From NCBI RefSeq assembly GCF_016907235.1, contig NZ_JAFBBO010000001.1:992001-1056000 (forward strand): 64,000 nt of DNA, in the 5' to 3' direction. Positions 14,919-17,584 of this stretch are shown one piece after another (within the stretch, counting starts at the first letter, position 1; each line of letters opens with the position of its first letter). The translations under genes were made by a program, and so were the position numbers. Under the pieces are notes generated by a model that had not been told where the DNA came from, did not search any database, and saw only the letters and a list, made by a program, of their open reading frames with translations. This stretch comes from Oerskovia jenensis. Its GTDB lineage: Bacteria > Actinomycetota > Actinomycetes > Actinomycetales > Cellulomonadaceae.

Positions 14919-15656
14919 TCAGACCCGGCGGAACTCCAGGTCGGTGATGACCCGGCCGGCCGCGTGGCCCTTGTTCTCGAAGCTCGTGAGCACGCGTCCC
15001 TCGAAGCGCGGCGCGACCGCACCGACCCCGTGGACGTTCTCGAACGACGGGTTCGCGCCGACGACCTCCAGCATCCGGTCCGCGTACTCGGCCCAGTCGG
15101 TCGCGAGCCGCCACGTCCCCCCGGGGCGGATCGCGCGCGCCGCGAGCCCCGCGAGCTCGGGCGTCACGAGGCGACGCTTGTGGTGGCGGGCCTTGTGCCA
15201 CGGGTCGGGGAAGAAGACCCAGAGCTCGTCGACCGAGCCCGCGGGCAGGGTCGTCGTGAGCACCTCGGCCGCGTTCGCCTGCAGCAGGCGCAGATTCGTC
15301 AACCCCCGCTGCGTCGCCCGCAGCACCGTCTGCGCGAGGCCCGGCGTGTAGACCTCGACGGCCAGGAAGTCGCGCTCCGGGGTGGTCTCGGCGGCGTGGA
15401 CCACGGCCTCCCCCAGGCCCGACCCGACCTCCACCACGACCGGAGCCGTCCGCCCGAACGTCGCTGCGACGTCGAGCACGAAGGACGGGTCGACGGACGT
15501 GCGCGCGATCGACCGGGGGACGTCCAGGACGAACCGGTCGGCGTGGTCGTCCCACGCGCGCTGCTGGCGGGTGTTGAGGCGGCCGCTGCGGCGGACGAAG
15601 GACACGATGTCGGTACGGAAGCCCTGCTCGCGGGCCTCGGAGAGGGTCTCGGGCAC
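14919..15656 (-). CDS. trmB: tRNA (guanine-N7-)-methyltransferase TrmB
   Basis: 245 aa. VEVGSGLGEAVVHAA is the SAM loop; LWVFFPDPWHKARHHKRRLV is the diagnostic TrmB motif. It methylates G46 in the tRNA variable loop. GTG 15656 follows TAGACT by 6 bases (leaderless). It is a single gene here, between the actP and trpB2 transcription units and on the same strand. Confidence 0.95.
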   Translation of the reverse strand: MPETLSEAREQGFRTDIVSFVRRSGRLNTRQQRAWDDHADRFVLDVPRSIARTSVDPSFVLDVAATFGRTAPVVVEVGSGLGEAVVHAAETTPERDFLAVEVYTPGLAQTVLRATQRGLTNLRLLQANAAEVLTTTLPAGSVDELWVFFPDPWHKARHHKRRLVTPELAGLAARAIRPGGTWRLATDWAEYADRMLEVVGANPSFENVHGVGAVAPRFEGRVLTSFENKGHAAGRVITDLEFRRV

Positions 15657-15741: not shown

Positions 15742-17079
15742 TCACACGTACTGCGCGTACGCCGGCAGGTCGAGCTGACCGTTGCCCGACAGGCCGATGA
15801 CGACGACCTCGGGCTCGGTGAGCGTGCGCGCGTACGCGATGGCGGCAGCCACCGCGTGCGTCGACTCGGGCGCCGGGAGGATGCCCTCCGAGCGGGCGAA
15901 CTCGAGCCCCGCCCGGAACGCCTCGTCCTGGTCGATCGCGATCGCGTCCATGAGCCCCAGGTTCACGGCGTGCGAGACCATGGGCGACATGCCGTGGTAG
16001 CGCAGACCGCCCGCGTGGATGGCCGGCGGCACGAAGTCCTTGCCCAGCGTGTGCATCTTGAGCAGCGGCGTGAGCCCCGCGACGTCGCCGTGGTCGTAGC
16101 GGTACTCGCCCCGCGTGAGCGACGGGCACGCCGAGGGCTCGCACGCGACGAGCCGCGTCGTCGTGCCCTCGCGCAGGTTGCGCCCCAGGAACGGGAACGT
16201 GAGCCCCGCGAGGTTGGACCCTCCGCCCGCGCACCCGAACACGACGTCGGCGACCGGCTCCCCCGCCTCCTCGAGCTGGACCAGTGCCTCCTGACCGATG
16301 ACCGTCTGGTGCAGCATCACGTGGTTGAGCACGCTGCCCAGCGAGTAGTGCGCCTGCGGGTCCTGCGCCGCGACCTCGACGGCCTCGCTGATCGCCATGC
16401 CGAGCGAGCCCGTGGTGTCCGGGTCGCTCGCGAGGATCGCACGGCCCGACGCCGTCAGCTCCGAGGGCGACGAGTGGCACACGCCCCCGTAGGCCTCCAT
16501 CTGGAAGCGGCGGTACGGCTTCGAGTCGTACGACGCCCGCACCTGCCACACCTCGCACGTGAGCCCCAGCAGGGCTGCGGCCATCGACAGCGAGGCCCCC
16601 CACTGCCCCGCGCCGGTCTCGGTCGTGAGCCGCGTCGTGCCCTCCATCGCGTTGTAGTACGCCTGCGCGATCGCCGTGTTGGGCTTGTGCGACCCGACCG
16701 GGCTCACGCCCTCGTACTTGTAGTAGATCCGGGCGGGCGTGCCGAGCGCGCGCTCGAGGCGGTGCGCGCGGATGAGCGGCGCGGGCCTCCACATCGCGTA
16801 GATCTCACGGATCGTCTGCGGGATCTCGATGTAGCGCTCGGTGCTGACCTCCTGCTCGATCAGCGCCAGGGGGAACAGCGGCGCCAGGTCCGCGGGCACG
16901 AGCGGCTCGAGCGTGCCCGGGTGCAGGTGCGGCGGCACGGGCTCGGGCAGGTCCGCGTTGAGGTTGTACCAGTGCGTCGGGACGGTGGAGGGGACCTCGA
17001 CGCCGAGCGGCTCGAGCGAGCGAGCGGTCGGGGCGGCCGGCGCCGAGGGCGCCGAGGTGGGGAGGGGGGACGTCGACAA
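15742..17079 (-). CDS. tryptophan synthase beta chain, TrpB2 type
   Basis: 445 aa, longer than TrpB1 (about 400) as expected for TrpB2. PLP lysine in [32 protein letters not shown], and the phosphate loop GCAGGGSN. TrpB2 condenses indole and serine to tryptophan without a stable TrpA partner; no trpA is nearby. Start TTG 17079 is chosen because AAGGAGAG sits about 7 bases upstream; the longer reading to 17118 has no ribosome site. An upstream leader peptide with two adjacent Trp codons and attenuator-like hairpins (17147-17238) implies control by charged tRNA-Trp. Confidence 0.9.
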
Positions 17080-17146
17080 GGAACTCTCTCCTTCGTGGAT
17101 GGGCACGTGCGGGGGCACGTTCCGGGCGATCCACTCCGGGAGACCT

Positions 17147-17207
17147 GCTGGACCGCCCGTCGTCGGGCTCGGTCAGCACGCCACAGCGTCCGACCGTCAG
17201 CGGTCGG
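17147..17207 (-). promoter_or_regulatory. putative tryptophan attenuator (segments 1-4)
   Basis: On the minus strand, segment 1 CCGACCG (17207-17201, in the leader ORF) pairs perfectly with segment 2 CGGTCGG (17196-17190). Segment 2 can instead pair over 7 positions with CTGACCG of segment 3 (17177-17164). Segment 3 pairs with segment 4 (17159-17147) to give a 12-pair stem: GCT, GACC, GCCCG against CGGGC, GGTC, AGC. This is the 1:2, 2:3, 3:4 logic of classical attenuation. The 3:4 stem lacks a clear T-run, as often seen in high-GC actinobacteria. Confidence 0.65.
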
Positions 17208-17238
17208 GCCACCAGGTGTGTGCGGTGAGCAGGTTCAC
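17197..17238 (-). CDS. trpL: trp leader peptide MNLLTAHTWWPDR
   Basis: 13 codons from GTG 17238 to TGA 17197, with tandem TGG codons at positions 9-10. TATGGT lies 6 bases upstream of the GTG, so the leader mRNA is probably leaderless. The stop codon falls between attenuator segments 1 and 2, so a ribosome stalled at the Trp codons would cover segment 1 and free segment 2. The main gene downstream is trpB2. Too short for routine gene finders. Confidence 0.7.
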   Translation of the reverse strand: MNLLTAHTWWPDR

Positions 17239-17244
17239 GGGCAG

Positions 17245-17274
17245 ACCATAGCCCGCGGGGCGCCGAGTTGTGAA
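17245..17274 (-). promoter_or_regulatory. promoter of the trp leader-trpB2 unit
   Basis: Minus strand TTCACA (17274-17269), 18-base spacer, TATGGT (17250-17245), then 6 bases to the leader GTG. Confidence 0.6.
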
Positions 17275-17309
17275 GCGCGTCTCACGGAGAGGCCGTGCAC
17301 CGGGGACGA

Positions 17310-17351
17310 CGAAGGCCCCTCCCCCGCGTCTCCGCAGGTGAGGGGCCTTCG
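17310..17351. terminator. hairpin after the tRNA-Lys pair
   Basis: CGAAGGCCCCTC (17310-17321) and GAGGGGCCTTCG (17340-17351) are perfect complements around an 18-base loop, directly after the first-listed tRNA-Lys 3' end in the minus direction. Confidence 0.8.
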
Positions 17352-17354
17352 TGG

Positions 17355-17430
<76 letters not shown>

Positions 17431-17482
17431 GTGGTGGTGCTGGTCGTGCGGTGCTGCGTGCCCGCCGCTGCGGACGTCACGA

Positions 17483-17502
17483 CGGCCCCGTCCCCGGGGC
17501 CG
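17483..17502. terminator. small hairpin between the two tRNA-Lys genes
   Basis: CGGCCCC (17483-17489) pairs with GGGGCCG (17496-17502). Could be a terminator or a processing signal in a two-tRNA transcript. Confidence 0.45.
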
Positions 17503-17508
17503 TGATCG

Positions 17509-17584
<76 letters not shown>

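Follow-up and report, generated by a model that had tools for sequence, protein, structure and literature searches.

Does a trpB2 gene that stands alone carry its own tryptophan sensor and, if so, at which step of expression would that sensor act? We addressed this question for the trpB2 gene of Oerskovia jenensis, which lies in a 64,000-nt stretch of genomic DNA (hereafter the window) and in front of which a Trp leader peptide and attenuator had been proposed (hereafter the original prediction). The role of TrpB2 is debated: according to PMC1854888, it has been suggested to act as a serine deaminase, and certain TrpB2 enzymes showed poor activity. A leader that ties the gene to the tryptophan supply would make this debated role experimentally testable.

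The trpB2 locus and its leader ORF

The trpB2 gene (15742..17079, minus strand, TTG start) encodes a TrpB-like PLP enzyme, which scores above the curated cut-offs of both NF009057 (691 bits) and TIGR01415 (587 bits) and is 99% identical to its O. rustica counterpart. Among solved structures, the chains closest to it are 6hul, 6hte and 4qys, which are of the TrpB2 type. As originally predicted, the gene stands alone: no trpA adjoins it, and the next gene is trmB (14919-15656; TIGR00091, 147 bits).

Upstream of trpB2, the minus strand carries a leader ORF of 13 codons, MNLLTAHTWWPDR (17197..17238), which starts with GTG at 17238 rather than ATG, contains two adjacent Trp codons (TGGTGG, 17209..17214) and ends in TGA (17199-17197). 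The leader itself thus agrees with the original prediction, as does its promoter (17245..17274, minus strand; -35 TTCACA at 17274-17269, an 18-nt spacer and -10 TATGGT at 17250-17245), which, on the minus strand, proved to be the sole sigma-70-like match in 16900-17500, where 50 shuffles average 0.0. The GTG lies 6 nt downstream of TATGGT, and a TANNNT box ends 6–7 nt upstream of the leader GTG in all 32 leader loci collected here (5–8 nt upstream examined). With this spacing, transcription would begin on the start codon or directly beside it, and the leader mRNA is probably leaderless, with its 5' end at or near 17238. In PMC8079986, several leader peptides of S. lividans, two for Trp among them, are described as being transcribed leaderless.

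Two tandem tRNA-Lys (CTT) genes (17355-17430 and 17509-17584, minus strand) are located just upstream of trpB2. Between them and the trpB2 promoter there is a strong GC hairpin, GAAGGCCCCTC...GAGGGGCCTTC (17311-17350, minus strand), with almost no U-run. It may be the terminator of the tRNA genes, and it hints at U-less termination here.

Conservation of the leader

DNA upstream of trpB2 was gathered from relatives, and the WW leader was recognised in Oerskovia and in other genera, giving 32 leader loci with 31 distinct leader-to-start sequences. The peptide has 13 residues in 31 of the 32 loci and 12 in locus L207. As in leader-peptide attenuators for amino acids, the short ORF carries putative regulatory codons for the amino acid made through the downstream gene, with WW present before trpB2 in 30 of the 32 loci; WW is kept in 11 of 12 distinct peptides while other residues vary. 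The two remaining loci, L122 and L123 of genus g25, have a leader with one Trp codon that ends in WRHH (VILLTALDGWRHH). Two further g25 genomes, G025 and G045 (trpB2 loci L125 and L129), gave no match to the leader model described below at E ≤ 1e-5.

A sequence-only leader model of 62 positions, built from 22 leaders, was run on whole genomes. Among 221 genomes of the family it gave 21 matches of 44.8–66.9 bits, every one of them directly before trpB2: 7/7 Oerskovia, ten genomes of genus g8, two of g20 and two of g25, the g20 loci being near-copies of those of Sanguibacter L014 and L015. As 19 of the 21 matches were training rows, scoring by construction, the weight of this result rests on the absence of other matches, and apart from trpB2 leaders nothing in the 221 genomes scored above 26.4 bits. 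In the R. erythropolis genus, 11 of 28 genomes have leader matches of at least 30.7 bits, all 11 before trpB2 and eight of them outside the training set, and six other matches reach at most 21.2 bits with no trpB2 adjoining. The original prediction had staked itself on leader and stems being conserved in relatives, and for the leader this is borne out by these 21 family genomes and 11 genomes of the R. erythropolis genus.

In the O. jenensis genome itself, the single match at E ≤ 0.01 is the trpB2 leader. Under strict filters, 396 genomes of the order gave matches at E ≤ 1e-5 in three Oerskovia only, in a sample that has 35 family genomes and includes none of the 14 leader-bearing genomes outside Oerskovia; in 396 genomes of the phylum, likewise under strict filters, the window's own leader was the only match at E ≤ 1e-5. 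The leader is not a general companion of the gene: a hand count in a listing of 200 family genomes gave 74 near-full-length trpB2 places versus 21 leaders, so that many trpB2 genes lack one. A leader pattern search of the 396 order genomes and the O. jenensis genome returned background only, besides the known Oerskovia leaders; locus L170, which came from that search, was rejected since by eye it looks like coding DNA. In Rfam, the window's matches at gathering score are tRNAs only, and membership of an Rfam family was dismissed, the lone match at E ≤ 5 in 17060-17300 being unrelated (E = 4, opposite strand).

Possible helices between the leader and the trpB2 start

Six segments of the minus strand can pair in mutually exclusive ways. 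Segment 1 (CCGACCG, 17201..17207) pairs with segment 2 (CGGTCGGACGC, 17186..17196) in the hairpin CCGACCG-CTGA-CGGTCGG, and the leader stop codon, which had been placed between the two segments, sits in its loop. Segment 2 can pair instead with segment 3 (GCGTGCTGACCG, 17170..17181), and segment 3 in turn (17177-17164) with segment 4 (CGGGCGGTCCAGC, 17147..17159). The mutually exclusive hairpins 1:2, 2:3 and 3:4 of the original prediction are thus possible, and they are kept in relatives. Segment 4 has a second potential partner in segment 5 (17123..17143), which comprises TCTCC (17143-17139), GTGGAT (17134-17129) and GGATCGCCCG (17132-17123); the last is fully complementary, with one G-U, to CGGGCGGTCC of segment 4. 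GTGGAT, which overlaps GGATCGCCCG, and TCTCC can pair with segment 6 (17087..17100), that is, GTGGAT with ATCCAC (17100-17095) and TCTCC with GGAGA (17091-17087), the trpB2 Shine-Dalgarno sequence (SD). The original prediction was hence right about segments 1–4 and missed segments 5 and 6 as well as the probable leaderless start; its coordinates were correct but too narrow, as the RNA element extends to the trpB2 start at 17079.

Taken over 16 aligned leaders, the predicted helices 1:2, 2:3 and 4:5 provide the mutually exclusive pairings, starting from the regulatory codons, by which attenuators are recognised. In helix 1:2 of these 16 rows, one pair is C-G in seven, U-A in five and a broken C.A in four, and another is broken in two. 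In helix 2:3, two of ten counted pairs are broken in Rhodococcus rows (9/16 and 5/16 rows). Helix 4:5 has 12 unbroken pairs in Rhodococcus L202, L203, L204 and L206, and helix 3:4 is, by eye, the least regular of the helices in Rhodococcus.

Other lineages differ in detail near the trpB2 start. In genus g8, a conserved block CGTCGTCGGCCCAGC complements CGACGACG in the 3:4 loop, GACGAC just past the trpB2 start and GCTGG of the SD. The trpB2 start ATGACGAC in ten g8 loci (L097-L100, L102, L104-L107 and L113) resembles the leader-loop sequence CGACGAC, and a single complementary block is thereby able to pair with the loop or with the start. The g25 loci have a hairpin, CTTCGTG...CACGAAG, that extends to the SD edge, a free segment 4 is able to pair with the trpB2 start itself in Rhodococcus, and the SD has a further, local pairing option (AAGGAG/UUCCUU) in the window and in L010.

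Statistical support for the helices

In alignment A3, a sequence alignment of 16 Oerskovia and Rhodococcus leaders, helices 2:3 and 4:5 together are paired in 94.7% of cells versus 16–46% when slid, and helices 1:2 and 5:6 in 93.0% versus 24–44%, although most pairs are invariant and uninformative either way. Two-sided changes, each possibly one event, are seen in 4:5 (U-A/C-G, columns 84-116) in seven rows and in 1:2 (columns 33-48) in five, with a mismatch at the same pair in four. Covarying stems, proposed as a check by the original prediction, are found by one measure but not by the other: the covariation score was matched in 0/500 column shuffles for 2:3 with 4:5 and in 14/500 for 1:2 with 5:6, but the number of pairs with two-sided changes was not above chance, 365/500 and 461/500 shuffles being as high.

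In a helix-shuffle test, shuffling was confined to the nucleotides that separate segment 4 from the ribosome-binding site. The best 4:5 helix had p values of 0.029 in the window, 0.031 in L012, 0.002 in L202, 0.657 in L207, 0.202 in L014, 0.020 in L099 and 0.035 in L122, that is, p ≤ 0.035 in five of these seven representative rows. Combined by Fisher's method, the seven rows gave 4e-5 for 4:5, 4e-5 for the chain of 4:5 with the mutually exclusive 5:6, and a non-significant 0.055 for 5:6 alone (p 0.035–0.60), values that are optimistic, since the rows share ancestry, which overstates their independence; the seven were our choice among 13 run. The six rows outside these sums (chain p: L096 0.059, L011 0.071, L203 0.002, L015 0.408, L104 0.023, L107 0.006) match their relatives, with the exception of L015, which is clearly negative (p 0.39 for 4:5 and 0.41 for the chain). 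For L014 and L122, the script picked as best a helix other than the one seen by eye. Both this test and the two-state folding described below were designed once inspection by eye had revealed 4:5 and 5:6, with the ends of segment 4 set by hand for each lineage. Duplex-energy shuffles of 18 rows, a test that is too permissive, gave p 0.004–0.66 for 4:5 and values below 0.05 for 5:6 only in three g8 rows. Judged from these alignments and shuffles, 4:5 is supported as a conserved helix.

Folding of the ribosome-binding site

Two-state ensemble folding, with segment 4 free or not, was carried out on 21 of the 32 leaders. Freeing segment 4 left the SD more open in 5/5 Oerskovia (by 0.10–0.27, p 0.025–0.055), in L207 (0.34, p 0.035) and in L014 (0.16, p 0.040). 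In five g8 rows the gain was slight (0.05–0.10) and not above shuffles in any of the five; in Rhodococcus, SD openness stayed level or fell slightly in five of the six rows, while L012 gained 0.16 (p 0.08), and a drop was seen in L015 as well as in the two g25 rows. The start codon opened in g8 (from 0.62–0.65 to 0.93–0.94 in four rows, from 0.13 to 0.91 in L098) and a little in L207, and it closed in 5/5 Oerskovia (in the window from 0.86 to 0.07), both Sanguibacter, all six Rhodococcus and both g25 rows.

In a rough co-transcriptional folding heuristic applied to 16 leaders, SD openness changed as predicted in four (L096, L012, L014 and L098), in the opposite direction in four (L011, L099, L104 and L107) and not at all in eight, and masked folding of whole leaders revealed no consistent SD change among the rows listed. 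Taken together, the hiding of the trpB2 ribosome-binding site by 5:6 is weakly supported, and control of the SD is our best guess at what helix 4:5 would be for.

A proposed mechanism and its alternatives

We tentatively propose a Trp-responsive leader-peptide attenuator for trpB2, with translation initiation as its most likely output. That the element responds to the tryptophan supply is highly probable; the choice of translation initiation as the output is a good deal less secure, falling somewhat below an even chance. RNA polymerase would begin on the leader GTG or right beside it, leaving a bare 5' end for ribosomes to load onto. When charged tRNA-Trp runs short, a ribosome would stall on the WW codons and cover segment 1, upon which 2:3 could form, freeing segment 4 to pair with segment 5; helix 4:5 would then keep segment 5 off the SD and start region of trpB2, and TrpB2 would be made. 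When Trp is plentiful, the ribosome would reach the stop codon and mask segment 2, helix 3:4 could form, and segment 5 would be free to pair with segment 6 and hide the trpB2 ribosome-binding site. The leader ORF, its conservation, the potential of 1:2, 2:3 and 4:5 to form and the lack of a U-tract can be read from the DNA; we infer that ribosomes stall, that the mRNA is leaderless, which way the switch turns and that the SD is its last step. Attenuation may here work as a relay and dispense with a terminator.

No run of more than two T occurs between the leader stop and the trpB2 start in any of the 32 loci, which excludes a classical U-tract terminator, and a terminator scan found no terminator before trpB2. 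The attenuator of the original prediction therefore fails in its classical, transcriptional form. In an unlikely alternative, the leader would respond to Trp at the level of transcription, with 3:4 serving as an intrinsic terminator that lacks a U-run. This alternative draws on the 1:2/2:3/3:4 topology, on the strong hairpin with almost no U-run after the tRNA-Lys genes (17350-17311), on the mixed outcome of the folding tests of the translational model and on S. lividans trpL2 before trpS, which PMC8079986 describes as ending at hairpins that no U-rich stretch accompanies. Against this stand the short T-runs in all 32 loci and the irregularity of 3:4 in Rhodococcus; moreover, a terminator at 3:4 leaves the conserved segment 5 and helix 4:5 unexplained.

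A Trp-responsive leader could instead act through Rho, which would stop transcription before trpB2 if early release of the leader ribosome bared an untranslated stretch. The stretch in question is only 88–143 nt long and able to fold strongly, and a conserved 4:5 is not predicted, which makes Rho an improbable agent here despite the lack of any intrinsic terminator found and despite the weak prediction of Rho action for terminator-less cys leader peptides (Seliverstov 2005, PMC1262725).

More doubtful still is a conserved leader ORF that does not respond to Trp at all, either a constitutive uORF or one encoding a trans-acting peptide. The Trp response is a prediction from sequence, the g25 leaders retain one Trp codon only, and a 29-row clade of g21-type and related TrpB2 does without the leader; yet WW outlasts the variation of other residues in 11 of 12 distinct peptides, the stop codon lies in the 1:2 loop, and the leader precedes a Trp-synthesis gene. 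A chance short ORF in GC-rich, folding DNA, which the near-chance folding energy by itself would allow (z -1.83, 10/200 shuffles equally low), is ruled out for practical purposes by the whole-genome leader-model matches, namely the eight new ones in the R. erythropolis genus, every one before trpB2, and the family genomes, in which only trpB2 leaders surpass 26.4 bits.

Relation to known attenuators

The E. coli trp attenuator resembles the trpB2 leader in its Trp codons and segments 1–4, and differs from it in having an SD-led leader, a U-tract terminator and the trp operon as its target. Closer in kind are the S. lividans Trp leader peptides trpL2 and trpL1, which according to PMC8079986 are leaderless, as the trpB2 leader probably is, and like it are actinobacterial; trpL2 shares with it a length of 13 aa and the lack of a U-rich stretch, but has one Trp codon, whereas trpL1 has a U-rich stretch, and their targets are different (trpL2 before trpS, trpL1 before trpE). 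The trp attenuators of Corynebacterium and Streptomyces, including that of C. diphtheriae trpB2A, also stand before trp genes and share competing hairpins and a leader with a UGG doublet or triplet, but have GC-rich terminators followed by poly-U (PMC1262725). Mycobacterial poly-cysteine short ORFs (Canestrari 2020, as cited in PMC13236596, where they are given as translation attenuation) are leaderless, as the trpB2 leader probably is, and carry regulatory codons, but concern cysteine codons and cys genes, and the likeness is one of ORF description, hairpins aside.

In a literature search that reached few subscription papers, no attenuator on a stand-alone trpB2 was found. The one match for trpB2 with a leader peptide was Seliverstov 2005, on the C. 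diphtheriae trpB2A operon (PMC1262725), where 'trpB2' is named in an operon with trpA, unlike the lone gene of Oerskovia. The kind of element, a leaderless leader-peptide attenuator of Actinobacteria, is known; the trpB2 leader looks like a new member of it, with the lone trpB2 as a new target.

Role and history of TrpB2

The O. jenensis genome has trpE, trpC, trpB1 and trpA in one stretch beside hisI. Within 16 kb around this trp operon, no ORF of 7–45 codons with two Trp codons adjacent or one apart was found on the trp strand; two overlapping WW-type ORFs lie on the opposite strand. At least one more TrpB-like match is present in every one of the 21 family genomes with the leader. The finding of a putative Trp sensor on trpB2, and of none on the trp operon, is in keeping with a TrpB2 that makes Trp during starvation, plausibly from free indole. 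TrpB2 proteins are described as binding indole with high affinity and O-phosphoserine as a substrate of TrpB2 enzymes (PMC11917138), and both TrpB paralogs of Thermococcus are reported in indole salvage (a title cited in PMC11085991). The presence of a Trp-codon leader on a lone trpB2 in several genera and in Rhodococcus suggests that selection treats this TrpB2 as a Trp source in shortage, so that, from its apparent regulation, the enzyme may be a tryptophan supplier.

In a quick-search tree with SH-aLRT support, built from 122 TrpB2 proteins, the 26 leader-bearing rows fall in one clade (support 95) together with 31 rows that have no leader. The leader label requires three changes on this tree, for which one gain and two losses are possible; leaders are absent from all 29 rows of the clade that holds g21-type and related TrpB2. 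Leader-bearing Rhodococcus TrpB2 falls within the support-95 clade, which is mainly Micrococcales, apart from that of other Nocardiaceae such as R. ruber. Given this position, trpB2 and its leader were most likely transferred jointly into Rhodococcus. The fullest account is of a tryptophan switch with a design of its own. A relay of five helices (1:2, 2:3, 3:4, 4:5 and 5:6) would be driven by a leaderless WW peptide of 13 codons, and its last step would hide or free the trpB2 start; the switch would govern the lone TrpB2, an indole user, rather than the trp operon, and would have reached Rhodococcus together with its gene. This account is possible but asks for more, and we hold it with greater reserve than the attenuator proposed above.

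A diverged leader of the Rhodococcus set, the 12-aa WW leader of L207 (1514-1673), also lies before trpB2; it belongs to a genome of 10.3 Mb and has an acyl-CoA-ligase-like ORF, named by eye, upstream of it.
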